A DNA stretch of 35,374 nucleotides from Planktotalea arctica (GTDB lineage: Bacteria > Pseudomonadota > Alphaproteobacteria > Rhodobacterales > Rhodobacteraceae): contig NZ_MUHR01000021.1 of assembly GCF_002105285.1 (NCBI RefSeq), positions 1 to 35,374 of the forward strand, written 5' to 3'. Shown here one piece after another: positions 14,433-35,197 of this stretch; within the stretch, counting starts at the first letter, position 1, and each line of letters begins with the position of its first letter. The notes under the pieces are model-generated. The model was not told the origin of the DNA, ran no database searches, and saw only the letters and a program-made list of their open reading frames with translations. The position numbers and the translations under genes were made by a program.

Positions 14433-15488
14433 ATGTCACGAAAACTGTCCATAGCTCTTGTACTGGCGGTGCTTGCTGCGTTTCTGGGCTACGCCGCTTG
14501 GAAGGTGCTTTTGGCACCGAGCGACCTGCCGCCAGAAGGCTTCGCACGCGGAAACGGCCGGATTGAAGCGGATCTGATCGACATCTCGACGCGGCTGACT
14601 GGACGTGTCGCCGACATTGCAGTGCGTGAAGGTGATCTAGTGCAACCCGGCGACCTGCTAGCTGTTATGGATACGAGCGAGTTGGAAGCGCAGAGTATGC
14701 GGGCGCAAGCCGCAGTGGCAAGTGCGCAGGCGACTGTGTTGGTCGCAGCCGCAGGGGTAGCGCAGGCCGAGGCGAATCTTGCTTTGGCACAGATCGAGTT
14801 GGCCCGAACTGAAACGCTAAGCGCGCGTGGTATTGTCTCGAGTGAGGAACTGGACATCAGACGCACCGAGGCGCAGCTGGCAGAGGCAGGTCTTGCCGCA
14901 TCGCGCGCAGGTGTCGTGGCCCAACAGCGTGCGGTAGACGCCGAAATCGCTGCCCTTCGCGAAATTGAGGCACGGATCGCCGATAGCACGCTCTACGCGC
15001 CTGCGGCTGGACGTGTCCTCTACCGGCTGGCACAGCCTGGAGAAGTTCTCGGCAGCGGCGGTAAGGTGCTGACACTCATTAGCCTTGGCGAGGTCTATAT
15101 GGAGTTCTTTCTGTCCGCCAGCGACGCGCCACGAGTGCGATTGGGCGACGAGGCGCGGATCGTCGTCGATGTCAGACCCGACGTCGCAATCCCTGCCGTA
15201 GTCAGCTTTGTCGCACCGCAGGCGCAGTTCACGCCGAAGCAGGTTGAAACTATCGAAGAACGCGAAAGCCTGATGTTCCGCATTCGCGTTCGGATACCAT
15301 CCGAATTGGTTTCTGCGCGGCTTTCCCAGATCAAGACTGGCGTGCGCGGTGTGGCTTGGGTGCGGCTGGTGGGGTCGGATGGCGAGGTAATAGACTGGCC
15401 AGAGGGTTTGACACCCCCTGTTGCCACCGAACTGCCTGCTCCGCTTGACGGTACCCGATCAGATGATGGGGATGCGGCCTCGCAATGA
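14433..15488 (+). CDS. yhiI: HlyD-family membrane fusion protein (YhiI-like)
   Basis: A 351-aa periplasmic adaptor. One N-terminal membrane helix (about 6-27, ALVLAVLAAFLGYAAWKVLL) anchors it. The first half-lipoyl/barrel strand (ADIAVREGDLVQPGDLLAVM) follows, then a long alpha-helical hairpin of Ala/Glu/Arg repeats (about 88-185), the second half-lipoyl segment (ADSTLYAPAAGRVLYRLAQP) and a beta-barrel domain. AAAGGAG precedes the ATG. Its last four bases (ATGA) overlap the RbbA gene. Order and overlap match the E. coli yhiI-rbbA-yhhJ export operon. The substrate is unknown in that system too; peptides or drugs are guesses. Confidence 0.88.
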   Translation: MSRKLSIALVLAVLAAFLGYAAWKVLLAPSDLPPEGFARGNGRIEADLIDISTRLTGRVADIAVREGDLVQPGDLLAVMDTSELEAQSMRAQAAVASAQATVLVAAAGVAQAEANLALAQIELARTETLSARGIVSSEELDIRRTEAQLAEAGLAASRAGVVAQQRAVDAEIAALREIEARIADSTLYAPAAGRVLYRLAQPGEVLGSGGKVLTLISLGEVYMEFFLSASDAPRVRLGDEARIVVDVRPDVAIPAVVSFVAPQAQFTPKQVETIEERESLMFRIRVRIPSELVSARLSQIKTGVRGVAWVRLVGSDGEVIDWPEGLTPPVATELPAPLDGTRSDDGDAASQ

Positions 15489-18265
15489 ACGACACCGCTG
15501 ACATTCCCGTTACCAAAAATCCGCCGGTGGCGCGACTGGATCAGGTAAGCCACAGCTATGGCAAGGTTCTAGCGTTAAACCAAGTCACACTGGATTTGCC
15601 TGCCGGGCAGATGATCGGACTGATCGGACCGGACGGGGTCGGCAAGTCGACGTTGATGGCACTGATCGCGGGTGCCAAGAAGTTGCAGACGGGGCAAGTT
15701 CAAACGCTCGGTGGCGACATGACCTCTGCACGTCACCGGGCCAACGCGGGGCGGCGGATCGCCTTCATGCCGCAGGGGCTGGGGCGCAACCTTTATCACG
15801 ATCTTAGCCTTAAGGAAAATTTGGATTTTTTCGGCAAACTCTTCGGGCTAGACGGGGCCGAGCGTGCGACGCGCATCCAGCGCTTGACCCGCGCCACGGG
15901 TCTTTCAACCTTCATGAACCGGCCTGCTGGCAAACTTTCTGGTGGGATGAAGCAGAAACTGGGGCTTTGCGCGTCGCTGATTCATGATCCGGATTTCCTG
16001 CTATTGGACGAACCGACAACCGGGGTCGATCCGCTGTCGCGGCGTCAGTTCTGGGACCTGATCGACACCATCCGTGCGGATCGGCCCGGGATGAGCGTGC
16101 TGGTGTCTACCGCCTATATGGAAGAGGCAGCGCGATTTGGTCATCTGGTGGCAATGGAGGGTGGGCGCGTCTTAGCCGAGGGCAGCCCCGCCGAATTGAT
16201 GGAACGGACCGGAAAACCCACAGTGGAAGCAGCCTATGTAGCATTGCTGAGCGGTGACAGTGCCGATACTCCCCCGCCTGAAAAACCGGCCGCCAAGGCC
16301 GAAATGGACCCCGGACCACCCGCCATTCGCGCCGAGGGTCTGACCAAGAAGTTCGGGGATTTCACCGCCGTCGATGCCGTCAGCTTCGAGATCACGCGCG
16401 GTGAAATTTTTGGCTTTCTAGGCTCGAACGGCTGCGGAAAGACAACGACGATGAAAATGCTGACCGGGCTGACACCTGCAACCGAGGGTGAGGCGTGGAT
16501 CTTCGGCAAGCCGGTCGATGCGCAGAATCTCGACGCACGGCAGCGCGTCGGTTTCATGTCTCAATCTTTCTCGCTCTATGGCGAATTGACGGTGCGGGAA
16601 AACTTGTTGCTGCATGCGCGGCTTTATCATTTGGGCCGGACACTAACCGGCGAACGGATGGCAGAACTGGTGCCGCGCTTTGGCCTTGAAACCTATCTCG
16701 ATCAGGGTGCCGCATCGCTCCCGCTTGGGGTGCGCCAGCGTCTGTCATTGGCGGTCGCGGTAATCCATGCCCCCGATATCCTGATATTGGACGAGCCGAC
16801 ATCCGGTGTCGATCCGCAGGCGCGCGATATGTTTTGGGATATGTTGCTGGAACTGGCGCGACGCGATGGCGTGACGATCTTCATTTCGACCCACTTCATG
16901 GACGAAGGCATGCGCTGTGACCGGATTTCGCTGATGCACGCGGGCAAAGTTCTTGTGTCAGATGCCCCCAAGGCGCTGATTGAGGCACGTGGAGTTGAGA
17001 CGCTTGAGGACGCCTTCATCGCATATATGATCGACGCATCACCGCCAGAGGAACCGGTGCAAGAAGGATTGCTGACTGGTACCGACGCGCCAGAGGCGAA
17101 AACCTCCGCGCCAAGTTTCAGCCTGCAACGGCTTTTGGCATTCACCTCGCGCGAGGCAATGCAGGTGCGCCGCGATCCGGTACGGCTGGTGTTTTCCTTT
17201 GTCGGTAGCGCGCTGTTACTGCTGATTATGTCTTTCGGCATCTCGCAGGAGGTCCGCAATATCCCCTTCGCGGCATTCGATCTGGACCGCAGCCCCGAAA
17301 GCAGAGCGTACCTGTCGGGTTTTGAGGACTCAGCTTGGTTCCAGCAAGCGCTGCCCATTTCTGACGCCGACGAATTGGAACGCCGGATGGAAAATGGCGA
17401 GCTGGCCCTGGCGATGCAGATACCGCCGGGTTTCGGGAAGTCTGTGCGCCGTGGTGAAACCCCCGAGATTGCAGGGCTGATCGACGGCTCCGACACAAAT
17501 CGCGCTGGCACAGTGGAAAGCTATGTCAAAGGCGCACATGCGCATGTTCTATCTGTCGGCGCACAATCAGCGTTGGCGCTGGCCGATCTAGCGACACCCC
17601 GCGCCCCGAACTCGGCACCGCCCGTGCAATTGATCCCGCGCTTTCACTACAACCCGGCGATGGAAAGCCTACCCGCCATCGGACCTTCTATCCCACCGCT
17701 TTTGTTGTTGCTGTTCCCCGCGATCCTGATGGCGGTGAGCGTGGCGCGTGAGAAAGAGATCGGCACGATCACCAACTTCTATGTTACCCCCACCAGTCGC
17801 GCCGAGTTCCTGATCGGCAAACAGCTTGTTTATATCGGCATCACGCTGTTGAATTTCGTGATCCTGACGGCACTGGTGGTCACGGTTTTGGGCGTGCCGC
17901 TTAAGGGTGATCCGGTGGCGTTAGTGCTGGGCGCGTTGCTTTATGCTGTGGCAGCGACGGGCTATGGTCTTGTCGTGTCAATGCTGACAAAAACCCAAGT
18001 CACAGCCGTTTTTGCGGCGGCAATCCTGTCGGTGATGCCAACGCTGCAATTTTCCGGCATGATGACACCTGTGTCGTCGCTGGAAGGTGCCGCGCAGATC
18101 ATGGGCACATTTTGGCCAACCACTTGGTATATGGGCATCAGCGTTGGTACCTTTACCAAGGGCTTGGGCCTTTCCGAGCTTGCGGGTCACCTGCTGCGTC
18201 TGGCCGCCTTTGGCCCTGTCCTAACGTTGCTGGCGGTGCTGGCCTTGCGCAAGCAGGAGCGCTGA
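15485..18265 (+). CDS. rbbA: RbbA-type fused ABC transporter: two ATPase domains plus ABC-2 permease
   Basis: A 926-aa protein. ATPase 1 has Walker A GPDGVGKS (48-55), signature LSGGMKQK (151-158) and Walker B FLLLDEP (171-177), but its switch position reads VSTAYMEE, with Ala for the usual His. ATPase 2 has Walker A GSNGCGKT (313-320) and a complete FISTHFMDE switch, but a degenerate signature, LPLGVRQR. The two motif losses are complementary, as in known RbbA proteins, suggesting one asymmetric ATP site. An ABC-2 permease with six helices and the large extracellular loop fills about 540-926. In E. coli RbbA was described as a ribosome-bound ATPase, but the membrane domain and adaptor neighbour favour export. 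It is coupled to yhiI and to yhhJ (2-base gap). Confidence 0.92.
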   Translation: MNDTADIPVTKNPPVARLDQVSHSYGKVLALNQVTLDLPAGQMIGLIGPDGVGKSTLMALIAGAKKLQTGQVQTLGGDMTSARHRANAGRRIAFMPQGLGRNLYHDLSLKENLDFFGKLFGLDGAERATRIQRLTRATGLSTFMNRPAGKLSGGMKQKLGLCASLIHDPDFLLLDEPTTGVDPLSRRQFWDLIDTIRADRPGMSVLVSTAYMEEAARFGHLVAMEGGRVLAEGSPAELMERTGKPTVEAAYVALLSGDSADTPPPEKPAAKAEMDPGPPAIRAEGLTKKFGDFTAVDAVSFEITRGEIFGFLGSNGCGKTTTMKMLTGLTPATEGEAWIFGKPVDAQNLDARQRVGFMSQSFSLYGELTVRENLLLHARLYHLGRTLTGERMAELVPRFGLETYLDQGAASLPLGVRQRLSLAVAVIHAPDILILDEPTSGVDPQARDMFWDMLLELARRDGVTIFISTHFMDEGMRCDRISLMHAGKVLVSDAPKALIEARGVETLEDAFIAYMIDASPPEEPVQEGLLTGTDAPEAKTSAPSFSLQRLLAFTSREAMQVRRDPVRLVFSFVGSALLLLIMSFGISQEVRNIPFAAFDLDRSPESRAYLSGFEDSAWFQQALPISDADELERRMENGELALAMQIPPGFGKSVRRGETPEIAGLIDGSDTNRAGTVESYVKGAHAHVLSVGAQSALALADLATPRAPNSAPPVQLIPRFHYNPAMESLPAIGPSIPPLLLLLFPAILMAVSVAREKEIGTITNFYVTPTSRAEFLIGKQLVYIGITLLNFVILTALVVTVLGVPLKGDPVALVLGALLYAVAATGYGLVVSMLTKTQVTAVFAAAILSVMPTLQFSGMMTPVSSLEGAAQIMGTFWPTTWYMGISVGTFTKGLGLSELAGHLLRLAAFGPVLTLLAVLALRKQER

Positions 18266-23705: not shown

Positions 23706-24128
23706 TCAACTGAGTTGGGACAAAAGTTGGATCAGTAGCGCACCGTCCTTGGTATCAAATTGCTCCGCCAATGCACGATCTTCGTCTTCGACATCTTGTC
23801 GGACTTGAAGCATCCGCCTCCGTCCTAAGTTGGTCAAAAGCAGGTTGATCTGGCGTTGATCGGCGGTTGCGATCTGCCGATGGACCAATCCATCAGACAC
23901 CATTCTGTCTACGAGCTTACTCAACGCGGGCGGATTGAGCAGCGCCTGCTTTGCTAACTCTCCCATGGAAAGTTTGGTACCTGCGTCAAGGCATTCCATG
24001 ACCCGCCATGCCTCAATCTGAATGCCATGCTTTTTCAGGCGAACAGTCAGCGCTTGCGTAACCGACCTATGCGCCGCGGCCAGTGCGTAGGATAGGTGGT
24101 TGCCAAGAGGGTTAAGCTCGGTCGTCAT
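23706..24128 (-). CDS. MarR-family transcriptional regulator
   Basis: A 140-aa winged-helix regulator starting MTTELNPLGNHLSYALAAAH. Helix 1 and the dimer region are followed by the HTH (SMGELAKQALLNPPALSKLV, about 58-77), then DRMVSDGLVHRQIATADQRQ with the wing and the usual D-R pair, and a C-terminal dimer helix. Longer in-frame starts run across the divergent gene and are rejected; GAGG precedes this ATG. It is divergent from the AmiC-like sensor gene with a 57-base gap, so the pair probably share an operator. MarR proteins often sense aromatic acids, and a product of the adjacent amidase is a reasonable ligand, but this is inference. Confidence 0.88.
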   Translation of the reverse strand: MTTELNPLGNHLSYALAAAHRSVTQALTVRLKKHGIQIEAWRVMECLDAGTKLSMGELAKQALLNPPALSKLVDRMVSDGLVHRQIATADQRQINLLLTNLGRRRMLQVRQDVEDEDRALAEQFDTKDGALLIQLLSQLS

Positions 24129-24163: not shown

Positions 24164-24192
24164 TTGACTTGGAAAGCAAATTCAATTGCAAT
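24164..24192 (+). promoter_or_regulatory. Possible sigma-70 promoter between marR and the sensor gene
   Basis: TTGACT (24164-24169) and TGCAAT (24187-24192) are 17 bases apart, matching 5 of 6 and 4 of 6 consensus bases. They lie in and just beyond the 57-base divergent gap, so MarR binding here could control both genes. If real, the transcript would start near 24199 and the sensor would have to begin at GTG 24225 or later. Confidence 0.3.
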
Positions 24193-25352
24193 GTGCCAAT
24201 TCGCCGTGCAAACTTGAGAAGGATGTGGCCCTGGGACGCCTCACAGCAGAGCTGGCTCTTCCAATCGAACTCGCGGATTTGCGCGAGAGCGGCCATTTGC
24301 ACGCGCAAGGCAGTTTCAACGTGGCGCTTCTAATTCCGATGTGTGGACCTGCTGGCATTTGGGCGCCGTCTTGCATTTCGAGCGCGCAAGTCGCCGCCGC
24401 AGAGTTGAACCGCACCAACGGGATTCAAGGTCGCCGGGTTCAGTTGATCATGATTGATGCCGCACTTGAGGCCGGTGAACCCATTGAAGAAATCATCAAC
24501 GAACTGATCGAGCTTGGCGCAATTGATGCGATTGTCGGAATGCATCTGAGCGCGGTGCGCCAAAGGTTGTCCAAAGTGGTGCGCCAACGCATTCCCTACA
24601 TCTACACCCCGCTTTATGAAGGCGGCGAAACGACGCCGGGCCTCTTTGCGATTGGCGAGACCCCTCAGGAACAACTCGGCCCTGCGATGGCGATGCTTCA
24701 GCAAGCGTTTCGACCCCGCAAATGGGCACTGATCGGGAATGATTACGTCTGGCCGCGCAGCTCGCACAGTTTTGCCAAGACCTGCCTGAGGCAGATGAAT
24801 GTGGATTTGGCGATGGAGTGCTATGTGCCATTCGGACTGCCCAGCATGACTGATCTGGTCGATAGGTTGGAAGCGTCGGGCGCCGACGCTGTGCTTGTGT
24901 CACTGGTTGGGCAAGATGCCGTCGATTTCAATCGCGTGTTCGGTCGTCGTGGCCTGCATAAATCGATATTGCGTCTGTCCTGTGCGCTTGAGGAAAATGG
25001 CTTGATGGCCTGCGGTGAGGGGAATCTAGAGCGGTTGTTTTCTGTCTCTTCGTACTTTGGGTCCATTTCCACCGATGCGAATGCCTGCTTCAAAGAGCGC
25101 TATTATGCGATGCATGGGGAAATCGGGCCCGCGTTGAATGCGCTTGGACAATCAACTTATGAAGGCTTGCATTACTTGTCAGCGCTCTTGCGCGACTTTG
25201 GCGACATTTGGCGCGAACGTTCCACGCAGGACGGTCTGCCTGTGATTCACGAAAGTGGTCGCAGTTTTGAGCGAAATGGCAAGAGAGAGCGCCCGTCCAT
25301 CTACCTAGCGCGTGCGGATGGTGTACAATTTTGCGACTTTAAGGTGCTGTAA
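24186..25352 (+). CDS. AmiC/urea-type ligand-binding protein, probable cytoplasmic amide sensor
   Basis: Up to 388 aa, in the periplasmic-binding-protein type I fold of amide/urea receptors: FNVALLIPMCGPAGIWAPSC opens the domain, and HLSAVRQRLS, PYIYTPLYEGGE, NDYVWPRSSHSF, LVSLVGQDAVDFNR and LNALGQSTYEG are typical of the AmiC/FmdD group. No signal peptide is present, which favours a cytoplasmic sensor over a transport receptor; a separate exported binding protein is at 27159. The start is uncertain: TTG 24186 (longest) and GTG 24225 both have poor sites. No AmiR-type antiterminator lies beside it; the divergent MarR may be its partner. A gap of about 100 AT-rich bases precedes the flotillin gene. 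Confidence 0.78.
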   Translation: MQCANSPCKLEKDVALGRLTAELALPIELADLRESGHLHAQGSFNVALLIPMCGPAGIWAPSCISSAQVAAAELNRTNGIQGRRVQLIMIDAALEAGEPIEEIINELIELGAIDAIVGMHLSAVRQRLSKVVRQRIPYIYTPLYEGGETTPGLFAIGETPQEQLGPAMAMLQQAFRPRKWALIGNDYVWPRSSHSFAKTCLRQMNVDLAMECYVPFGLPSMTDLVDRLEASGADAVLVSLVGQDAVDFNRVFGRRGLHKSILRLSCALEENGLMACGEGNLERLFSVSSYFGSISTDANACFKERYYAMHGEIGPALNALGQSTYEGLHYLSALLRDFGDIWRERSTQDGLPVIHESGRSFERNGKRERPSIYLARADGVQFCDFKVL

Positions 25353-25455: not shown

Positions 25456-27111
25456 GTGCCGGACGCGGTGGGGGAACTTATTTTGTACTGGCTCTTGGCT
25501 CTCGTCATATTGGCAATCGCTCTGCTGATCGGCATCTGGTTTCTTCAGCGATTTTACGCAAAAGCATCGTTGGAAAGCGCGCTTGTGCGCACCGGCATGG
25601 GCGGGCGGCGCGTGATGACGGACGGTGGCTGTGTGGTGCTACCGATCGTGCATCAATCACTGCGCGTATCGATGCAGACCAACACTGTAACCGTGTCACG
25701 CACAGGGCGCGAGGCGGTGCTCACATCCGATCCGCTGCGCGCCGACATCACTATGAAGTTCGAGCTGCGCGTCGCCTCAGATACCGACAATATCGCTACC
25801 GCAGCACAGGCCTTTGGCAATCGCATTGCGCGTGGCGGCGAAGCATTTGAGGATGCGCTCGCAGGTCCTTTGGCCAACGCGATCCAGACCGCTGCTGCAT
25901 CGCGCGATTTGAACAATATCCACCTAGAGCGCGCTGAATTCACCCAAGAGGTCGCGCGCGTTGCCTCTGAGCACGCTGGGCGGTTGGGACTAGAGCTGGT
26001 GACAGCCGCGCTTGTCTCCATTGATCAAAGTGATTTCGCAGGGCGGGATGAAAACAACACCTTCAACGCACGCGGCATGCGCCGTTTGGCGGAGATGGTC
26101 GCAGAAGAACGCAAGGCCCGCATTCTTGTTGAAACGTCCACAGAAACCGCCGTTCGCGAACATCGTTTGGCCCAGCATCAGCGCCAGATGGAGCTGCAAC
26201 GCGCAGAGCGTGAAACAGAGATTGCCCAGCAAGAACACTTGACCAAACTGGAGGCCGAAGCAGAGAGCCGAGCGTCGCAAGCACACTCAGAGGCGCGGCA
26301 TGCCTCCGAGACCAGTCGCATCCAGCAAGAGCAAGAAACAGAAGCTGCAAAAGTCACCAGCGATGAAGCACTTCGCAAGGTTGAGATGCGCGCGCTGCTG
26401 GAGCTGGAAGAAGCGAAAATTGCCAACGGGATCAAGCTGTCGCAATCGCGCACCAAAGAGGCAAAAGCACAAGCAGAAGAGGAAGAAGCCCGCGCGCAAG
26501 TAATTCTAGCGGCCGAAAACGTGCAGGCGCAAAAGGAACGCGCAGTCACGATGCGCGAAATGGAAATCGCCAAACTCAAGCAAGATCGCGATATCGAACT
26601 TGAAGGCGCACGCGTCACAAGCGACGTCAACACGCTTCTTGCCAAAGCACAGGCAGACGCATCGGTCCGCACCGCCAGCGCACATGCTGAGCAATCCGCG
26701 ATGGAGGCCGAGGCGGCAGGCAGAGTTGCCCTGAATTCAGCAGAGAACACGCTCAGCGATGCGGTGATCCGCATGCGCCTAGAAGAACGCAAGCTCGACA
26801 AAATGCCCGAGATCATGACCCAGATGATGAAGCCTGTGGAGAAAATCGACTCGATCCGCATCAACCAGATCAGCGGACCCGGCGGCGGTTCTGGCTCTTC
26901 TGGCGGCGACGGCGTCGACAGCGCCTTTGGGGCCGCGATGGACCAGATACTCGGAATGGCCGTGCGCCTGCCTGCGATGAAGCAAATGGGCGAAGAGATC
27001 GGCTTGGATTTTGACGTCCCCACCGCAGGGCGAACGGCAGATTATGCCAACCGCATTAAGGCCAAAGACGAACCTAAACCCACCTCTAAATCCGAAAAAC
27101 CCAAAGAGTGA
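25456..27111 (+). CDS. Flotillin-like SPFH-domain membrane protein
   Basis: A 551-aa protein. One N-terminal membrane helix (about 8-30, LILYWLLALVILAIALLIGI) is followed by an SPFH/band-7 domain (about 45-205: GMGGRRVMTDGGCVVLPIVH, DPLRADITMKFELRV). A very long Glu/Ala/Arg-rich coiled coil follows (about 210-450), then a Gly/Ser linker (GPGGGSGSSGGDG) and a C-terminal helical part ending in a Lys/Pro tail. This matches bacterial flotillins (FloT/YqiK type), which organise membrane microdomains. GTG 25456 is chosen; a second GTG 12 bases on is possible and neither site is strong. It lies in the amide cluster, 47 bases before the binding protein gene. A role in clustering the transporter-amidase is inference. 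Confidence 0.87.
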   Translation: MPDAVGELILYWLLALVILAIALLIGIWFLQRFYAKASLESALVRTGMGGRRVMTDGGCVVLPIVHQSLRVSMQTNTVTVSRTGREAVLTSDPLRADITMKFELRVASDTDNIATAAQAFGNRIARGGEAFEDALAGPLANAIQTAAASRDLNNIHLERAEFTQEVARVASEHAGRLGLELVTAALVSIDQSDFAGRDENNTFNARGMRRLAEMVAEERKARILVETSTETAVREHRLAQHQRQMELQRAERETEIAQQEHLTKLEAEAESRASQAHSEARHASETSRIQQEQETEAAKVTSDEALRKVEMRALLELEEAKIANGIKLSQSRTKEAKAQAEEEEARAQVILAAENVQAQKERAVTMREMEIAKLKQDRDIELEGARVTSDVNTLLAKAQADASVRTASAHAEQSAMEAEAAGRVALNSAENTLSDAVIRMRLEERKLDKMPEIMTQMMKPVEKIDSIRINQISGPGGGSGSSGGDGVDSAFGAAMDQILGMAVRLPAMKQMGEEIGLDFDVPTAGRTADYANRIKAKDEPKPTSKSEKPKE

Positions 27112-27158: not shown

Positions 27159-28379
27159 ATGTCTCTGAACAGGCGAGAACTACTTGGCGGCGCAGCAGCG
27201 CTTAGCACCGCAGCGATGTTACCCAGCGCATCAATGGCGGCGGATACGATCCAGTTGGGATCAATCCTCGACACATCCGGCATCTTTGACGCCTATGGCA
27301 AACCGATGGATCAAGCGATGCGCTTGGCTGTGAAAGAGATTAATGATGCAGGCGGCTTGCTTGGCAAGCAGGTCGAAGTTGCCGCCTACGACACCCAATC
27401 TGACATGGCGCTTTATTCGCAATATGCGCAGCAACTGACCCGTCAGGACAAAGTCGATGTTGTTCACGGCGGCATCCTGTCTGCCTCGCGTGAAGCGATC
27501 CGTCAGACCATGCGCAAGACCAAGACCTTGTACTTCTACAACGTTCAATACGAAGGCGGCGTCTGCGATCGCAACATATTTGTGACGGGCGTGACCCCCG
27601 CGCAGCAAGTCGAGGTGCTGGTGCCTTATGCGATGAAAAAATCTGGCCCCAAGGTGCATATTCTTGCGGCTGATTATAACTATGGCCAGATCACCGCACG
27701 CTGGATTCAGAAGTTTGTCGAAGACAATGGCGGCGAGGTTGTTGCGACTGATTTCTTCCCGCTCGACGTTGCTGATTTCGGCTCTACTATCACAAAGATC
27801 CAGCAAACAGCGCCGGATCTGGTGTTTGCCCCACTCGTGGGCGGTGCGCATCTGTCCTTCTTCCGCCAATGGTCGGCAGCGGGCATGAAAGACAAGGTCC
27901 CCCTCGCGTCGACGACGATGGGCGTAGGCAATGAGCATAAGGTCCTGACGCCTGAAGAAGGCAACGGCATCATGGTCGCCTACAACTACAGCCAAGAGCT
28001 GGAAACACCCGCCAACATCGCGTTCAAAGCAAAATGGCAGGCTGAGTATGGCGATACAACTGCGATCCATGAATTGGCCGTGTCTACGTATCAAGGCATC
28101 ATGCTTTGGGCCGCAGGTGTGCGCAAAGCCGGCAGCGTCGAGCGCGACGCAGTCGTGGATGCGCTTGAGACTGGCATTTCCATCGAGGGTCCAGCAGGCA
28201 AAGTCACCATTGATCCGCAAACCCACCATGCTACAGTCGATGTGCACATAATGGAGTTTGAAGGCCAAGGGATGACCGTGATCGAAACCCTGCCTCAACG
28301 CGCGCCAATTGACACTCAGGCCGTGTGCGATTTGCAAGCCAATCCCGGCGACAACACCCAATACGAGATCGAAATCTGA
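27159..28379 (+). CDS. Periplasmic amide/urea-type substrate-binding protein of an ABC importer
   Basis: A 406-aa exported receptor. The signal has a twin-arginine (NRRELLGGAAALSTAAML), cut after SMA near residue 29, so export by Tat is likely. The type I binding fold starts IQLGSILDTSGIFDAYGKPM, with ADYNYGQITARWIQKFVEDN, PLVGGAHLSFFRQW and AVSTYQGIMLWAAGVRKAG, typical of UrtA/FmdD-type proteins for urea or short-chain amides. GGAGG precedes ATG 27159. A hairpin follows 20 bases after the stop codon, and the permeases come next. Linkage to an amidase and lack of urease genes suggest an amide rather than urea as substrate. Confidence 0.88.
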   Translation: MSLNRRELLGGAAALSTAAMLPSASMAADTIQLGSILDTSGIFDAYGKPMDQAMRLAVKEINDAGGLLGKQVEVAAYDTQSDMALYSQYAQQLTRQDKVDVVHGGILSASREAIRQTMRKTKTLYFYNVQYEGGVCDRNIFVTGVTPAQQVEVLVPYAMKKSGPKVHILAADYNYGQITARWIQKFVEDNGGEVVATDFFPLDVADFGSTITKIQQTAPDLVFAPLVGGAHLSFFRQWSAAGMKDKVPLASTTMGVGNEHKVLTPEEGNGIMVAYNYSQELETPANIAFKAKWQAEYGDTTAIHELAVSTYQGIMLWAAGVRKAGSVERDAVVDALETGISIEGPAGKVTIDPQTHHATVDVHIMEFEGQGMTVIETLPQRAPIDTQAVCDLQANPGDNTQYEIEI

Positions 28380-28448: not shown

Positions 28449-29315
28449 ATGGACCTCAGTTTCGTTATTCTTGTTGAAGTGCTTTATGGCGTCGCGTCGC
28501 TGGTGTTGATCAGTGCCGGACTGGCCGTGGTGTTCGGGATGATGAAAGTCATCAACCTTGCGCATGGTGAATTCATGATGATGGGCGGCTATGCGACAAT
28601 CACCGCTGTCGGGCTAGGTGTGAATGTCTTTGTTGCCATGCTCGTTATCGCGCCCCTTGTCGTTGGGTTGATCGGATTGATCGTCGAACGCTTGGTGATC
28701 CGCCATCTATATGGACGCTTGGTCGATACGATGCTGGCCACTTGGGGTCTTAGCCTCGTTTTTATCGGGCTGGCGACGATGATTTTCGGCAATACAACGA
28801 CAGGTATCTCGACCCCGATCCCCGGCTTTGCGGTCGGTGGCTATCAGGTCAACGGCTACAACTTTTTCATCATCATCGTGACCATTGTGCTGGTCATTGC
28901 CATGTTTGCTGTATTGCGCGGCACACGCGCTGGCTTGATCGCACGCGGCACGATGCAACGCTCTGATATGGCGGCTGCACTCGGCTATAGTCCGGATCGC
29001 ATTTACATGATGACATTCTTCTGCGGCTCGGCCTTGTCCGGACTTGCAGGTGCCGTTTTGGCCCCTTTGGTCGGCCTCGTTCCCACTTCTGGCGGGGCTT
29101 ATATTGCCAAAGCCTTTATCACCGTGATCGCGGGTGGACCTTCGCTGATCGCGGGTCTCGTGAGTTCTGCCACCTCGTTCGGCCTCGTCAGCCAGTTCTT
29201 CACATTCGCAATCTCGCCGGTCATCGGTGAAGTCGCGCTATTGATCGCCGCTGTCGTCCTGCTGCGCACCATGCCGCAGGGGATCACCGGTCGCTTCTTC
29301 AAAGGCAAATTGTGA
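28449..29315 (+). CDS. Branched-chain/amide ABC transporter permease 1 (LivH/UrtB-like)
   Basis: A 288-aa inner-membrane permease with about eight helices. The N-terminus LYGVASLVLISAGLAVVFGM then MKVINLAHGEFMMMGGYA is the signature of the LivH/UrtB group, and the cytoplasmic coupling loop is ALGYSPDRIYMMTFFCGSAL. ATG 28449 is preferred although its ribosome binding site is weak, because the open frame upstream to 28407 lies within the hairpin. Its stop codon overlaps the next permease start (TGATG). It would form the channel heterodimer with that protein. Confidence 0.9.
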   Translation: MDLSFVILVEVLYGVASLVLISAGLAVVFGMMKVINLAHGEFMMMGGYATITAVGLGVNVFVAMLVIAPLVVGLIGLIVERLVIRHLYGRLVDTMLATWGLSLVFIGLATMIFGNTTTGISTPIPGFAVGGYQVNGYNFFIIIVTIVLVIAMFAVLRGTRAGLIARGTMQRSDMAAALGYSPDRIYMMTFFCGSALSGLAGAVLAPLVGLVPTSGGAYIAKAFITVIAGGPSLIAGLVSSATSFGLVSQFFTFAISPVIGEVALLIAAVVLLRTMPQGITGRFFKGKL

Positions 29316-30340
29316 TGGGCCGTAGCGCGTCGCAAGATGTGATGATCACGCTGGTGGTTTCGGCTATGCTGATTTGGCTGCTACCGTTGATGATCAGCAC
29401 ATATACGCTGACTGTGCTCGTGATCTACGGCATGCTCGGCCTTAGCCTTGGGCTGATCTGGGGCTTTGGCGGGATCTTATGCTTTGGTCAGGCAGCCTTC
29501 TTCGGTTTGGGTGCCTATACCTACGCCATCGCTGCCATCAACATTGGCGAGAGCACGCTGCCTATGATCCTCGCGGTTCTGGTGCCTGCGGTATTCGCGG
29601 CACTGCTCGGGGCGATGATGTTTTACGGGCGTCTGACGGATGTTTATCTAGGTGTCATCACGCTGGTCGTCACGCTGATCTTGTTCAAATTTGTGAACTC
29701 GACCGCTGGTCCGCAATACGTGATTGGCAACGCGCGCTTGGGCGGTTTCAACGGCATCCCCGGCTTTCAGACGCTCAACGTGCCGGGTGATCCTGGCGCT
29801 TATATCTGGGGTGATCCCTATTTCTATGTCTGCGCGATTGCGCTGGTGATCGTGTTTTTATTAGTCACTTGGCTGCTGCGCTCATCATTCGGACGCATTG
29901 CCGTTGGCATTCGAGAAAACGAAGTGCGCATGGGCCTGATGGGCTATGACGTCGCCGCACGCAAAACTGTGTTGTTTGCGATTGGGGCTGCAATTGCGGG
30001 GCTTGCAGGTGCGCTGTTCGCCAATTGGGGCGAGATCGTCACTCCCAACTTGTTTTCGCTGGGTCAATCAGCGGAGATCATTATTTGGTGCATCGTGGGC
30101 GGTCTTGGCACGAGGTTTGGGCCGATAGTTGGGGCAGCCGGTTTGGCATACCTCAAGTTCATGCTGGGCCAGCAAAGTATGATCGACAATACGCTAGTCA
30201 TGGGTCTGATCCTTGTGCTGTTTGTTTTGTTCTTACCGCGCGGTCTGGTGCCAGCAGTTGCGTCGCTTTTGAACAGCATTTTTGGCCGCACAAAGCGCAA
30301 GCCAAGACCTCGCCGAATGAGGAGAGCGCGGCATGGTTGA
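29315..30340 (+). CDS. Branched-chain/amide ABC transporter permease 2 (LivM/UrtC-like)
   Basis: A 341-aa permease. Helices are evident at about 10-28, 32-60, 75-97, 101-125, 175-195, 222-243 and 262-305, with GLIWGFGGILCFGQAAFFGL GAYTY typical of LivM/UrtC, and the coupling loop ENEVRMGLMGYDVAARKTVL. It starts at ATG 29315, overlapping the TGA of permease 1; a GTG three bases earlier is also in frame. The C-terminus ends in an unusually basic tail (RTKRKPRPRRMRRARHG) of about 17 residues that overlaps the ATPase gene by 8 bases. The tail may contact the ATPase or nucleic acid; it may also be only a by-product of the overlap. Confidence 0.9.
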   Translation: MGRSASQDVMITLVVSAMLIWLLPLMISTYTLTVLVIYGMLGLSLGLIWGFGGILCFGQAAFFGLGAYTYAIAAINIGESTLPMILAVLVPAVFAALLGAMMFYGRLTDVYLGVITLVVTLILFKFVNSTAGPQYVIGNARLGGFNGIPGFQTLNVPGDPGAYIWGDPYFYVCAIALVIVFLLVTWLLRSSFGRIAVGIRENEVRMGLMGYDVAARKTVLFAIGAAIAGLAGALFANWGEIVTPNLFSLGQSAEIIIWCIVGGLGTRFGPIVGAAGLAYLKFMLGQQSMIDNTLVMGLILVLFVLFLPRGLVPAVASLLNSIFGRTKRKPRPRRMRRARHG

Positions 30341-31049
30341 AACGGTTTTGGAAACCAGCGGACTGACGATGCGGTTTGGCGGTGTAACGGCAAGCGATAA
30401 TGTCAATTTCAAGCTGAAAGCACGCGAGTTGCGCTGTTTGATCGGACCTAATGGTGCGGGCAAATCGACCTTCTTTAAATGTGTGACGGGATTGCTGACA
30501 CCAACCGAAGGCCACGTCTATATGCGCGGTCAAGAGGTTACAGGATGGCAACCGCATCAGATTGCCTCGCTCGGCGTAGGCATCAAAACCCAGACACCGA
30601 ACGTCATGGACGCGCTCAGTGTACATGAAAATATCTGGCTGGCGGCTCGGCGCTTTTACAACGTTGTTGAGGCCCGAGAGCGCGCGGATTCGATCATTGA
30701 TCGATTGGCATTGGGCGCAATTGCACGCACGCAACTGGGACAGTTGGCCCACGGCGAACGCCAGCGCGTCGAACTGGGGATTGTAGCGGTAGCCGACCCT
30801 TGGCTCGTGCTGCTCGATGAACCCGCCGCTGGAATGAGCGCGCAGGACGTTGATCGCATGACCGAGATCATCCATGAACTCACTCGCTTCGCAGCCGTCG
30901 TAATCGTCGAGCACGACATGCAATTTATCCGCTCCATCGCGCAAACCGTGACCGTATTCCATCAAGGGGCTGTGTTGATGGAGGACCATGTCGAACGAGT
31001 CATGTCGGATCCCCAAGTGCGCGCCGTTTATCTAGGAAAGAAAGCGTGA
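30333..31049 (+). CDS. ABC transporter ATPase 1 (LivG/UrtD-like)
   Basis: A 238-aa ATPase. Walker A GPNGAGKS (38-45), the signature-position sequence LAHGERQRVELGI (LAHGE in place of LSGGQ, as in UrtD), Walker B WLVLLDEP and the switch His in VEHDMQF are all present, so it should hydrolyse ATP. It drives the amide importer together with the ATPase half of the next gene. The start overlaps permease 2 by 8 bases and its stop overlaps the next ATG (TGATG), so translation is coupled throughout. Length matches UrtD-type proteins. Confidence 0.91.
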   Translation: MVETVLETSGLTMRFGGVTASDNVNFKLKARELRCLIGPNGAGKSTFFKCVTGLLTPTEGHVYMRGQEVTGWQPHQIASLGVGIKTQTPNVMDALSVHENIWLAARRFYNVVEARERADSIIDRLALGAIARTQLGQLAHGERQRVELGIVAVADPWLVLLDEPAAGMSAQDVDRMTEIIHELTRFAAVVIVEHDMQFIRSIAQTVTVFHQGAVLMEDHVERVMSDPQVRAVYLGKKA

Positions 31050-33421
31050 TGTCTAAAGATCGCGAAATATTGCTATCCGCCAAAGGGTTGTCCGGTGGAT
31101 ATGGCCGCGTGCCGATCTTGCATGGCATTGACCTTGATGTCGCCGAGAACGAAGTTGTCGGCGTGTTAGGTCATAACGGCATGGGCAAGACGACGCTTTT
31201 GAAAACTCTGATGGGCTTTCTCCCTGCAAGTTCGGGTCAAGTTCGCTATGACCAAAACGATATCACGCGGCTTGCGCCCAATGAACGCAGCCAAATGGGC
31301 CTGGGCTATGTGCCGCAAGGGCGCGGCATCTTTCCGCAACTTTCTGTGCGCGACAACTTACGTTTTGCTTGGCACGATCATGGCGCTGGTTCTGAGCATG
31401 ATGTGATCGAAGCAGTGCTCGCTGATTTCCCACGCCTCTCTCGCTTGCTGGACCGCGAGGGCGGGGCCTTGTCGGGGGGCGAGCAACAATTGCTCTCACT
31501 GGCGCGATGCCTAATGGGCGATCCGGACTTCCTACTGCTTGATGAGCCCACGGAGGGCATCCAACCTTCCATCATCGAGGAAATGTCCGAAACCTTGTTG
31601 ACGCTGCGCCAAACTCGCGGGCTGTCTATTTTGCTGGTTGAGCAGAACTTTGACTTTATCGCTGACCTGTCTGACCGCGTTTTGGTGTTGGAGCGTGGAC
31701 GGATCACAGGCGAGCTGACGCGCGAAGAGCTGTCAGATCAATCTAAGGTCGATCAATTTTTGGGCTTTGGTGCCGCGCGCGGCACACGTCAAAAAACCGC
31801 GCGAGTGAAGACCCGAGCTGCTGCGCCACAACGCACGGAAACTTTTGCCCAGCAACCGAGCGCTACAGCGCCCACCCGATCGCAACCCTCAGTCTCAACG
31901 GTGACAGCAATGACTATCAAACGCCCAACTCTTGCTCAAATGCGCACCATGGCCGAACGGTTTGGGATGAGCCTGTCGGACGAAGATCTGAGTGAGTACA
32001 CCGAGATCATCGAGCCTTACATGCAGGCCTATGACAGGTTGGACGCGATGCCCGACAACCTGCCCGAAGTGCGCTATCCACGTAGCCCAGGCCGTTTCCC
32101 TGATCCAAGCGAAAACTCGTTGAATGCATGGTATGTAAAGACGGAAGTGCGCGGCGCACCAGATGGTAAATTGCGCGGTAAGCGAATTGCGCTAAAGGAT
32201 ACAATCTGCCTTGCAGGTGTACCCCTGATGAACGGTTCATCCATCATGGAAGGCTACACGCCAGAAATTGACGCCACTATCGTCACGCGAATGCTCGACG
32301 CGGGCGCTGTCATTGCAGGCAAAGCACATTGCGAGAACTTTTGCCTCTCTGGCGGTTCGCACACCAATGCCAAAGGCCCAATCCATAACCCATATAAACG
32401 CGGCTATATGGCAGGCGGCTCCTCTGCTGGATCTGCTGCATTGGTTGCCGCAGGCGAGGTGGATATGGCAATTGCTGGCGATCAAGGCGGCTCTATCCGC
32501 ATTCCGGCATCTAATTGCGGGTGTTACGGGATGAAACCTACACATGGACTGGTGCCCTATACAGGCGCAATGCCGATTGAACAAACCATCGACCACCTTG
32601 GCCCTATCACTAACAGTGTCGCAGATAATGCTTTGTTATTAGAAGTATTGGCAGGCGAAGACGGCCTTGATCCACGCCAGTACAAACCGAAGGTCTATAG
32701 CTACACCGAGGCATTGGGTCGCGGCGCGCATGGACTGCGCATTGGCGTTTTAAGTGAGGGCTTTGGCCACCCCAATTCAGAAGCGGACGTTGATCAAAAG
32801 GTGATGCAGGCCATCGAGCGTTTCCGCGAGCTCGGCGCGCGCGTTGAGGATGTCTCGGTTCCCGAACATCACACCGCGATGGACGCATGGACTGCAATCA
32901 CTCTTGAAGGGCTGCAAGATGGCATGATGTGGGGCAATTCCACAGGGACCAATTATCGCGGTCTCTTCCTACCCTCAATGACCGATCACATGTCACAATG
33001 GAAAGGCCGCGCGGACGAGCTGAGCCATTCGTTAAAGGCCTGCATGTTCGTCGGGGAGCATTTCCAGCAACAATATCGCGGGCGCTTTTACGGTAAAGCG
33101 CAAAACATTATGCGCCGGTGCAATGAACGGTATTTGGCCGCGCTCAAGCAATATGACCTGTTGCTGATGCCGACGCTGCCAATCAAACCCCAGGAACATC
33201 CGCCTGCCGATTGCTCGCTGAGCCTGTACGTGCAGCGCGCTTTTGAAATGGTGCCGAACACGGCCCCCTTTAACGGAGGCTTGCCCGCGATGAGCATCCC
33301 TTGCGGCTTTAGCGAAGGGCTGCCAATCGGATTACAATTGGTCGGGCCACACTACGGCGAAATGAAAATTTATCAGGCAGCCCACGCCTTTGAGCAATCA
33401 GGTGATTGGCGCGATATGTAA
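31049..33421 (+). CDS. Fusion: ABC transporter ATPase (LivF/UrtE-like) joined to an amidase-signature amidase
   Basis: A 790-aa protein with two complete enzymes. Residues 1-240 are a LivF/UrtE-like ATPase: Walker A GHNGMGKT (41-48), signature LSGGEQQ (141-147), Walker B FLLLDEP (161-167) and the EQNFDF switch region where His is replaced by Gln, as in LivF relatives. Residues 243-287 are a disordered Ala/Pro/Thr/Gln linker. Residues 288-790 are an amidase-signature enzyme of the nitrile-linked enantioselective amidase type: Lys383 (ALKD), the cis-Ser in GGSSAGSAAL (about Ser459) and nucleophile Ser482 in GDQGGSIRIP. Met288 is where stand-alone amidases begin (MTIKRPTLAQM), but no ribosome binding site precedes it, so one polypeptide is favoured. 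It would hydrolyse amide to acid plus ammonia at the importer's inner face. Confidence 0.93.
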   Translation: MSKDREILLSAKGLSGGYGRVPILHGIDLDVAENEVVGVLGHNGMGKTTLLKTLMGFLPASSGQVRYDQNDITRLAPNERSQMGLGYVPQGRGIFPQLSVRDNLRFAWHDHGAGSEHDVIEAVLADFPRLSRLLDREGGALSGGEQQLLSLARCLMGDPDFLLLDEPTEGIQPSIIEEMSETLLTLRQTRGLSILLVEQNFDFIADLSDRVLVLERGRITGELTREELSDQSKVDQFLGFGAARGTRQKTARVKTRAAAPQRTETFAQQPSATAPTRSQPSVSTVTAMTIKRPTLAQMRTMAERFGMSLSDEDLSEYTEIIEPYMQAYDRLDAMPDNLPEVRYPRSPGRFPDPSENSLNAWYVKTEVRGAPDGKLRGKRIALKDTICLAGVPLMNGSSIMEGYTPEIDATIVTRMLDAGAVIAGKAHCENFCLSGGSHTNAKGPIHNPYKRGYMAGGSSAGSAALVAAGEVDMAIAGDQGGSIRIPASNCGCYGMKPTHGLVPYTGAMPIEQTIDHLGPITNSVADNALLLEVLAGEDGLDPRQYKPKVYSYTEALGRGAHGLRIGVLSEGFGHPNSEADVDQKVMQAIERFRELGARVEDVSVPEHHTAMDAWTAITLEGLQDGMMWGNSTGTNYRGLFLPSMTDHMSQWKGRADELSHSLKACMFVGEHFQQQYRGRFYGKAQNIMRRCNERYLAALKQYDLLLMPTLPIKPQEHPPADCSLSLYVQRAFEMVPNTAPFNGGLPAMSIPCGFSEGLPIGLQLVGPHYGEMKIYQAAHAFEQSGDWRDM

Positions 33422-33433
33422 GGAGCCCTCACG

Positions 33434-35197
33434 ATGACTATCCTGAACGAGAGTATTGCAAGCCGAATCCAGAATTTTGGGCTGGAACAAGATGTATCTG
33501 CGCAAAGTAATCTCGCGCCGCGTGATGGAAAATCATATGTGCAAGGCGCGAAACATCCTGAACTTGCCTACGCCACGATCCCGCAGCTTTTGCGCGATGC
33601 CGTGTCGCGATATGGCCCACGCGATGCGCTGATCTTTCCAGAGGCACGGCTGAGCTACTATGATCTTGATCGCGCCGTAGATGCATTGGCAGCGGGTTTT
33701 CTGGCACTGGGGTTGGAAAAAGGGGATCGCCTTGGCATCTGGTCGCCAAACCGGCTTGAGTGGGTTCTGACCCAGTTTGCCACCGCACGCATTGGCGTGA
33801 TCTTGGTGAACATCAACCCTGCGTATCGCTTGTCTGAATTGGAATACGCGCTGAACAAAGTGGGTTGCAAAGCCTTAGTTTTGGCGCGGTCTTTCAAGTC
33901 CTCTGAATACCTTGAAATGATCCACACTTTAGCGCCAGAATTGTCGCAGGTTGAACGCGGGCGGCTACACTCGGTAAGATTGCCAAACCTGCGCCATGTG
34001 ATCGTGATGGACGATGCGCCAGAGGGTAGCGGTGTCTGGGCCTTTGCCGAGGTGGCAACGCTTGGTGGGCCAGCTCAGCAGCTGCGCCTGCCCGAGATCG
34101 ACCGCACGCTTCAACCGGATGACGCGATCAACATTCAGTTCACCTCTGGCACAACCGGACAGCCGAAAGGCGCAACGCTTTCGCACTACAACATCGTCAA
34201 CAATGCGCGTTTTGTGACTGATCGGATCAAGCTGACAGAGAACGACCGCCTCGCCATTCCAGTGCCGCTTTATCATTGTTTCGGCATGGTCATGGGCGTT
34301 CTCGGCGGTGTAAGTAAAGGTGCCGCACTGATCTTTCCGGGTGAAACGTTTGATGCGAAGCAAACGCTTCACGCACTCGCCACTGAGCGTTGCAGCGCCC
34401 TTTACGGCGTGCCAACAATGTTCGTTGCGATGCTACAGGAGCTGACCGACGCACCGCGCAATCTGTCCGCTTTGCGCACAGGAGTTATGGCGGGCGCACC
34501 TTGCCCGGTTGACGTGATGAAACAGGTCAACGACCAGATGCACATGAACGAGGTCACGATCTGCTATGGCATGACCGAAACCGCACCCGTATCGTTCCAG
34601 AGCTTTGTTGATGACACCACCCAGCGGCGCTGTGAAACTGTTGGGCGCGTGCATCCGCATCTGGAGGTCAAGATAGTCGATGAGGCGGGTCAAATCGTGC
34701 CAGTGGGCATCCAAGGTGAGCTGTGTACGCGCGGTTATTCGGTGATGAAGGGCTACTGGGAAGAGGCCGCACGCACATCGGACGCCATTCGCGACGGTTG
34801 GATGCATTCAGGCGATCTTGCGGTGCTAGACGTTGGCGGATTTTGTACGATCACGGGCCGAGTGAAGGACATGATCATCCGTGGCGGCGAAAACATCTAC
34901 CCGCTAGAGATCGAAGAATTCCTGTTCAGCCACCCCAATGTGAGCGAAGTCCAGGTCTTTGGCGTACCCGATACGCGATTAGGCGAAGAGGTTTGCGCTT
35001 GGGTTGTGGCTCAAAAAGGTGGCGACGTTTCACCCGAAGCACTACGCACGTTCTGCGCAGGTCAGATCGCTCACTTCAAAGTGCCCCGCCATATTCGCAT
35101 CGTCGACGAACTTCCGATGACAATCACTGGCAAGCCACAGAAATTCGTCATGCGTGACCGGATGATTGAAGAGTTGAGTAGTGGCTCTGCTGATTGA
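33434..35197 (+). CDS. AMP-forming acyl-CoA synthetase
   Basis: A 587-aa ANL-family ligase that would activate the acid released by the amidase to its CoA thioester. The P-loop TSGTTGQPKG lies at 237-246. The A5 motif CYGMTETAPV, the hinge region GRVKDMIIRGGENIYPLEIE and the C-terminal catalytic Lys in TITGKPQKF are all intact. Length (about 540-590) and GGENIYPLEIEEFLFSHPNV are typical of medium-chain or fatty-acyl-CoA ligases; aromatic acids are also possible. It starts 12 bases after the fusion gene behind AAGGAG, so it belongs to the same operon. It is the last gene of the cluster; no convincing terminator follows. Confidence 0.92.
   Translation: MTILNESIASRIQNFGLEQDVSAQSNLAPRDGKSYVQGAKHPELAYATIPQLLRDAVSRYGPRDALIFPEARLSYYDLDRAVDALAAGFLALGLEKGDRLGIWSPNRLEWVLTQFATARIGVILVNINPAYRLSELEYALNKVGCKALVLARSFKSSEYLEMIHTLAPELSQVERGRLHSVRLPNLRHVIVMDDAPEGSGVWAFAEVATLGGPAQQLRLPEIDRTLQPDDAINIQFTSGTTGQPKGATLSHYNIVNNARFVTDRIKLTENDRLAIPVPLYHCFGMVMGVLGGVSKGAALIFPGETFDAKQTLHALATERCSALYGVPTMFVAMLQELTDAPRNLSALRTGVMAGAPCPVDVMKQVNDQMHMNEVTICYGMTETAPVSFQSFVDDTTQRRCETVGRVHPHLEVKIVDEAGQIVPVGIQGELCTRGYSVMKGYWEEAARTSDAIRDGWMHSGDLAVLDVGGFCTITGRVKDMIIRGGENIYPLEIEEFLFSHPNVSEVQVFGVPDTRLGEEVCAWVVAQKGGDVSPEALRTFCAGQIAHFKVPRHIRIVDELPMTITGKPQKFVMRDRMIEELSSGSAD

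Follow-up and report, generated by a model that had tools for sequence, protein, structure and literature searches.

Several described systems come close to the locus reported here. The urea (UrtABCDE) and branched-chain amino acid (LivFGHMJ) importers are ATP-binding cassette (ABC) transporters whose architecture the locus shares, with family matches for all five subunits. The RhAmidase-type amidase (PDB 3a1k/3a1i) is the same enzyme: the alignment spans almost all of it and pairs residues 292-783 of the protein described below with residues 5-499. In a 35,374-nucleotide stretch of Planktotalea arctica DNA (contig NZ_MUHR01000021.1; hereafter the window), however, the amidase, which stands alone in the RhAmidase type, forms the C-terminal part of an ABC ATPase encoded at 31049-33421. 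The locus also differs from the urea importer in that all five subunits score under the urea-specific NCBIfam cut-offs and in that the UrtE position carries an enzyme. Split amide-import operons, in which ATPase and amidase are separate genes and the amidase has its own start, are found, for example, on Agrobacterium tumefaciens pAtAF1_95, Pleomorphomonas pSM30-1, Tistrella pTM2 and Aureimonas pAU20a, and on further plasmids of Rhizobium, Paracoccus and Bradyrhizobium. Sequence comparisons show that the fusion exists with conserved catalytic residues, forms one clade among split relatives and lies in a conserved operon.

Fusions of membrane facilitators with enzymes are called rare in the portion of PMC9775063 consulted, which describes aquaglyceroporin-arsenate reductases, citing Wu et al. 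2010. There, likewise, an enzyme is covalently joined to a transport protein of the same substrate chain, but those proteins pair an export channel with the enzyme that makes its substrate, whereas here an ATP-driven importer is joined, via its ATPase, to an enzyme expected to consume the cargo. The P. arctica protein is also distinct from fusions that place an enzyme on a membrane-spanning channel, as its partner is a cytoplasmic ATPase. Transporters are common among gene fusions and ABC transporters are treated as modular families in PMC4921024, as far as this source was consulted; 'amidase' appears nowhere in its main text. We found no description of an ABC ATPase-amidase fusion in the literature searched, which lies mostly outside subscription journals. 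In-frame dual-start genes, which give rise to N-terminal proteoform pairs (PMC11005335, excerpts), with Cas11b as another example (PMC11899642, excerpts), likewise use an internal in-frame start to make a shorter C-terminal product. The gene described here would differ in that its internal start appears to have been kept from a gene that once stood by itself, which would make the short product a complete ancestral enzyme. The overall explanation that we favor, and consider fairly probable, is an ancestral read-through with the start retained, such that one gene gives both tethered and free amidase.

One reading frame joins an importer ATPase to an amidase

The frame at 31046/31049-33421 on the plus strand lacks internal stops and comprises 790 codons from the ATG at 31049, which shares one base with the TGA that ends the upstream ATPase gene. 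Pfam profiles place ABC_tran at residues 24-168 (111.7 bits) and Amidase (PF01425) at residues 364-772 (303 bits; profile positions 36-442 of 445), both far over their cut-offs. Among NCBIfam models, a UrtE-like match covers residues 10-238 with 261.3 bits; this falls short of the equivalog cut-off of 285.8 for urea UrtE (TIGR03410), and we thus class the ATPase as UrtE-like and not as urea UrtE. PRK07235 (NF005565) covers residues 288-789 with 750.5 bits against a cut-off of 545 (profile positions 1-505 of 506). In an AlphaFold model built from 66 sequences (mean predicted local distance difference test score (pLDDT) 82.5; predicted template modeling score 0.62), residues 240-288 have a pLDDT below 50, while the domains on either side are mostly well modeled, with exceptions among the amidase loops (630-649, for example); how the two domains are placed relative to each other is undefined in this model. 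The preliminary description of the window, made from its letters and open reading frames (ORFs), had read an intact ATPase, a low-complexity linker and an intact amidase in this frame, and the profile matches and the model agree with that reading.

It had also proposed looking for the same architecture in relatives, where it does recur: 118 fused ORFs are present among 178 amidase ORFs scoring above 250 bits in 179 loci, some of which are the same genome fetched twice. These 118 reduce to 103 distinct fusions when compared by their first 100 amidase residues, and repeats were dropped before all counts at the joint. Linker length ranges from 27 to 86 amino acids across fused ORFs. The linker residues themselves are not conserved, and P, A, S, T, Q and R make up 72% of them across fusions versus 36% in the amidase.

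Both catalytic parts are preserved. Counted along the printed alignment with the solved amidase 3a1k, K383, S458 and S482 stand opposite its residues 96, 171 and 195, which we take to be the catalytic residues of that enzyme, and all three are present in 101/101 distinct complete fused proteins, in line with the Lys383-cis-Ser-Ser482 triad predicted from the window alone. This Lys-cisSer-Ser triad in a complete domain marks the C-terminal part as a member of the amidase signature family (PF01425). The N-terminal part has the features of an ABC importer ATPase of the LivF/UrtE type (PF00005): the Walker A Lys, Q-loop Gln, LSGG, Walker B Asp and catalytic Glu are found in 101/101 distinct complete fusions, and the last Walker A position varies between T and S, the usual exchange. 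At the H-loop position (residue 199, 31643-31645), Gln replaces His and is invariant in the 101 aligned fusions; Gln is usual at this position in LivF-type ATPases. The gene immediately upstream (30333-31049) encodes a separate UrtD-type ATPase, as expected if, as previously supposed, each transporter carries one fused ATPase.

A candidate internal start at the joint

The first residue of the amidase part, M288, corresponds to residue 1 of 3a1k if one counts four residues back from where the alignment begins. Its codon is ATG in 101 of the 103 distinct fusions, GTG in 1 and ATC in 1, and the matching place in split relatives is ATG or GTG in 28/29. When the 103 fusions are aligned at the joint, one nucleotide island stands out, with consensus GGTGA at -10 to -6 followed by the ATG. 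Position -10 is a wobble base beneath 12 different amino acids, yet it is G in 92/103 fusions, where 45.5 would be expected from each gene's codon usage and 36.3 from linker usage. In a thinned set of 19 rows at <80% identity, G is found in 15 (expected 8.8 from gene usage or 6.8 from linker usage).

The 17 bases before the ATG have a mean predicted pairing of -6.80 with the 16S rRNA 3' end (i.e., the anti-Shine-Dalgarno sequence) across the 103 rows, versus -3.85 and -3.36 for synonymous reshuffles with gene and linker codon usage, respectively. For either usage, and in the 103 rows as well as the 19 thinned rows, 0/200 reshuffles were as low as observed, although these counts are not clean probabilities because the rows are related. 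The joint site outscores all 28 other linker positions in 69/103 rows (11/19 thinned). The mRNA around the internal ATG, folded for the 19 thinned rows only, is less structured than in protein-keeping reshuffles (-7.17 versus -11.56, 0/60 as extreme) and in linker-usage reshuffles (-7.17 versus -10.47, 0/100 as extreme). A Shine-Dalgarno (SD)-like sequence and weakly folded mRNA at M288 are hence conserved beyond the amino-acid requirement, and together with the start codon they give the gene the sequence features of a dual-start gene.

Other starts in the same loci provide a yardstick. Pairing is stronger for the substrate-binding protein (SBP; -8.81, n = 72) and the ligase (-9.88, n = 76), while in 67 distinct loci the internal site averages -6.68 versus -5.07 at the fusion's own (guessed) first start. 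The starts of permease 1 (-3.25, 8 usable) and flotillin (-4.57, 22 usable) are weaker than the joint, with guessed start codons in both cases. The conserved start signals make it likely that a free amidase is also made. The preliminary description expected a single product of about 85 kDa; a full-length product remains the expectation, but the assumption of a single product appears incomplete, since the conserved internal SD-like site and the start codon where the amidase has its own Met predict that a free protein of ~54 kDa is made as well.

Besides the relatedness of the rows, several observations weigh against an internal start. One fusion (L055) has ATC in place of the start codon, and the exact GGTGA is limited to 60/103 fusions and 7/19 thinned rows. 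The site is weak (pairing above -4) in 13/103 rows and in 6/19 thinned rows (among them L094, L095, L105 and L108), it is not the best linker position in 34/103 rows, and 34% of other in-frame ATGs reach -4 unaided. Furthermore, SD-like sites inside genes can slow ribosomes, an effect that is debated, and this is the basis of the main rival explanation, in which only the full-length fusion is made and GGTGA with its open mRNA is a programmed slow-down, giving the ATPase time to fold ahead of amidase translation. The location of the site exactly at a domain boundary fits such a pause, as do the 13 rows in which the site is weak. However, the signal is tied to the ancestral-start codon, with ATG or GTG kept in 102/103; mRNA structure is lowered around that very ATG in the 19 rows folded; other in-frame ATGs have a mean pairing of just -3.44; and in some deeper members AGGA or GGAGG takes the place of GGTGA at roughly this position, a variation also seen at ordinary start sites. 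These points lead us to regard a pause without internal initiation as rather unlikely. We also considered the TGA inside GGTGA, a conserved stop in the +1 frame, as the selected element and rejected it, since some deeper members with AGGA or GGAGG lack it.

Origin and upkeep of the fused frame

In an amidase tree of 92 rows, the 45 fused rows fall on one side of a branch with a support of 96 in the Shimodaira-Hasegawa-like approximate likelihood ratio test (SH-aLRT). Outside this clade are 24 rows with adjacent genes and 23 rows without a nearby ATPase, and none of these 47 non-fused amidases lies inside it. This tree left out amidases <400 residues, fused rows <480, locus L124 (short flank) and near-copies >88% identical. 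A slower amidase tree (53 rows, 10 fused), which omitted L163, L164, both L170 rows, a duplicate of the L129 locus and any fused row with >72% identity to one retained, supports the fused clade at 94/89, just below the star threshold. A tree of the ATPase domain (45 fused of 74 rows) agrees, with a support of 95.

In split operons, the ATPase and amidase genes lie side by side with a gap of 3-372 nt (26 split loci, after 3 repeats were dropped from 29 found), and the amidase is in frame 0, 1 or 2 relative to the ATPase in 7, 11 and 8 of these 26 relatives, respectively. From these comparisons, the linker most likely began as the intergenic gap between the two genes, and the simplest reading is that the ATPase stop was lost once, in an ancestor whose two genes were in frame, which turned the gap into a linker. 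On the 45-row fused tree, linker length has changed an estimated 32 times at least, a number that is only approximate because the boundaries behind these lengths come from BLAST. Counted fusions are in frame by definition, but within the fused clade of the 92-row tree no member turned up with a shifted or stopped frame; all clade members open to judgment have kept it open.

An alternative is that the fusion arose by chance in an ancestor and was harmless, with the amidase working as before and tethering bringing no benefit. Split relatives hold the same genes as separate proteins, and the linker sequence itself lacks conservation; both facts count in favor of an accident. In split relatives, moreover, the free amidase alone is sufficient. 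An amidase with its own start needs no read-through, however, and neutral drift should therefore yield stops or frameshifts in some lineages. Instead, the open frame survived ~32 or more changes of linker length, and there is no split row in the fused clade of the 92-row tree; the one candidate, L124, ends at a contig edge, which leaves its frame state not judgeable and is a further caveat to an unbroken frame. We consider a neutral accident unlikely and infer that tethering carries a benefit.

In the explanation that we favor, a single ancestral read-through of a short ATPase-amidase gap in an amide-import operon would have created the fused gene, which would have kept the amidase's own ribosome-binding site and start codon. 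One mRNA would then give two proteins, the full-length ATPase-amidase and a free 503-aa amidase from the ATG at 31910, and on sequence grounds we infer that both are made. Given its intact domains and kept frame, the full-length protein is very probably produced, and the amidase would be tied to the importer, with one amidase per importer held at the cytoplasmic face via a flexible tether. There could be more free amidase than transporter, and free and tethered copies may pair; where the preliminary description had amidase dimers pairing transporters, the free pool could thus provide the partner instead. The importer would take in an organic amide, hydrolysis by the amidase would yield a carboxylic acid along with ammonia, and the product of the downstream ligase gene would form an acyl-CoA from that acid. 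Direct coupling of amide uptake to hydrolysis, as first proposed for this gene, is plausible and is backed by the operon. More tentatively, and with less confidence than we have in the two products, these parts may form a membrane-bound amide-processing complex in which the internal start sets the ratio of free to tethered enzyme, the two forms dimerize into clusters under the importers, and the operon's flotillin gathers these in a membrane patch; if so, incoming amide would be hydrolyzed before diffusing away. This reading draws on the presence of flotillin in the fused loci and deeper members, as opposed to the split plasmid loci (see below).

An importer ATPase that covalently bears an enzyme expected to consume the cargo makes a long-standing question testable, namely whether tethering beats free enzyme, and in this family one gene set exists naturally in both fused and split form. 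A start retained in this way, if true, would be a clean example of an operon gap that became a protein linker while the downstream gene remained independent.

Operon setting and distribution

Features of the fused gene and its neighbors in the window
Feature	Position	Strand	Remarks
MarR-type regulator, divergent	23706..24128	-	start set at MTTELNP Met
AmiC-like Peripla_BP_6 protein, possible amide sensor	24186..25352	+	start codon uncertain
Flotillin-domain protein	25456..27111	+	start uncertain
Substrate-binding protein (SBP), Peripla_BP_6	27159..28379	+	sequence kin of urea-binding proteins and AmiC
Permease 1 (UrtB/LivH-like)	28449..29315	+	start chosen by annotated homologue's length
Permease 2 (UrtC/LivM-like)	29312..30340	+	
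Second importer ATPase, UrtD/LivG-like, not fused	30333..31049	+	
Fused gene: UrtE/LivF-type ABC ATPase + linker + amidase	31049..33421	+	790 aa
ATPase domain, residues 1-242	31049..31774	+	catalytic motifs intact
Linker, residues 243-287 (about 45 aa)	31775..31909	+	predicted disordered, fast evolving
Internal Shine-Dalgarno-like GGTGA	31900..31904	+	5 nt before internal ATG; conserved nucleotide island at linker end
Internal ATG (M288) at amidase's original start	31910..31912	+	
Amidase domain, or free 503-aa amidase if internally started	31910..33421	+	PRK07235/PF01425
Acyl-CoA ligase	33434..35197	+	nearest NCBIfam model PRK12583, 783.7 bits, below cut-off 832

The gene order MarR(-)-AmiC-like-flotillin-SBP-permease-permease-UrtD-like-fusion-ligase is complete in 67/82 fused loci; of the remainder, 2 have MarR on the other strand and 13 are without outer genes, mostly for want of flank. 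Where the flank suffices, flotillin is present in 71/71 loci, the AmiC-like protein and MarR in 69/71, and the importer genes and ligase in 77/77. Deeper members with flanks have flotillin and importer in 9/9 and a ligase match in 7/9. The operon probably serves uptake and catabolism of an organic amide, through import, release of ammonia and acid, and formation of a CoA ester, in which the ligase could activate the acid released by the amidase; the amide substrate is deduced from the gene content.

This conservation bears on the idea that the ATPase is no longer a transporter motor but a scaffold or regulator of the amidase. Fusions can change roles, and the H-loop position is Gln, not His. 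However, this Gln is the usual residue in LivF-type ATPases, the other checked ATPase motif residues are invariant in 101/101 save for the Walker A T/S exchange, and both permeases, the SBP and the second ATPase accompany the fusion in all 77 loci with enough flank, making a loss of motor function very unlikely.

The N-terminus of the SBP resembles a twin-Arg signal, and the AmiC-like protein, which is related to AmiC (1pea), has no evident signal peptide (both read from the sequence). The nearest relative of the SBP by sequence is the solved extracellular ligand-binding receptor 8tg1, followed by urea-binding proteins and AmiC. In the aliphatic amidase (ami) operon, an AmiC sensor is accompanied by the ANTAR antiterminator AmiR; here no ANTAR domain was found among the 9 window proteins scanned, no wider search being made. 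A Paracoccus methylovorus plasmid (L177 11115-12894) has a split operon followed by a substrate-binding-domain protein and an ANTAR-domain protein, and control there is possibly of the AmiC/AmiR type where fused loci have MarR.

Of seven split plasmid loci, six have the order SBP-permease-permease-ATPase-ATPase-amidase, the SBP being second in Bradyrhizobium pCB82_1, and a second substrate-binding-domain protein is annotated nearby in 6/7. In contrast to the fused loci, a flotillin match is present in 0/7 within the stretch fetched and a ligase match in 1/7. The alpha subunit of nitrile hydratase (NHase) is matched in 3/7 split plasmid loci but in 0/75 fused loci over 12 kb (BLAST with the NHase-alpha of the window's genome; flanks ~9 kb or less). 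The fused loci are thus not nitrile-degradation clusters with a nitrile hydratase gene beside the amidase, and we set aside nitriles as the direct source of the amide, a more distant gene being possible. In the window's own genome, an NHase alpha-like gene with a CTLCSC motif lies on another contig (L181 6959-7621), flanked by a lipid A acyltransferase-like gene on one side and fliG on the other; the 6 of 26 ORFs scanned around it include no beta subunit, a search that was not genome-wide. With NHase-alpha absent near fused loci and located on another contig, an external amide is as likely a source.

The fusion is present in many marine and some other bacteria, with named carriers including Sulfitobacter, Ruegeria, Shimia, Phaeobacter, Hoeflea, Nitratireductor, Roseibium and Sneathiella, as well as a metagenome-assembled genome (MAG) named Arenicellales (L118). 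In another MAG, named Halieaceae (Gammaproteobacteria), a 12.7-kb contig (L041, JABJAS010000377.1) carries a fusion with 97% identity to the query in the best segment; this contig may be alphaproteobacterial and misbinned. When the fusion was used to query one genome per species and the best 80 of 145 relatives were kept, 80/80 loci proved to be fused in one frame (L087 and L115 are cut by the contig end within the amidase), a proportion that is uninformative on frequency because the scan was seeded with the fusion itself.

Evenly drawn genomes are the better guide to frequency. Within the family, 33/295 have such an amidase (E up to 1e-80); fusions were verified in 25/295, including the window's genome, and the other 8 comprise 5 with an ATPase gene beside a separate amidase and 3 outside the check. 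Within the class, 53/385 match, and verified fusions number 11 of 385 (the window's and 10 others), with L124 cut off at its contig edge; loci were inspected from 30 of the matching genomes, the window's among them, and the 23 not covered are less similar. Within the phylum, 22/398 match, and among loci for all 28 places the window's is the sole fusion.

Among 118 plasmid records with a match, nine were taken for inspection, and two complete plasmids carry the fusion as a single coding sequence (CDS) annotated merely as 'amidase', a label that conceals both the ATPase and the probable second product. An assembly or sequencing error that joined two genes, including the hidden linker frameshift or stop raised in the preliminary description, or a chance ORF can be rejected with near certainty, because the same architecture recurs in many independent assemblies, including these two plasmids with one CDS and the 80/80 loci.

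Fused ORFs >980 aa (L032, L058, L107-L109) were suspected of being triple fusions, but their extra length is upstream open frame, and none of the 118 fused ORFs has an in-frame UrtD match >80 bits upstream of the UrtE domain. In some loci (L188 6324-9307, L034 and L142), a second amidase of this kind stands in tandem behind the fused or adjacent one. Elsewhere in the window, a 926-aa ORF at 15485-18265 has two ABC ATPase matches followed by an apparent membrane part, a layout that, as read from the sequence, resembles that of RbbA.

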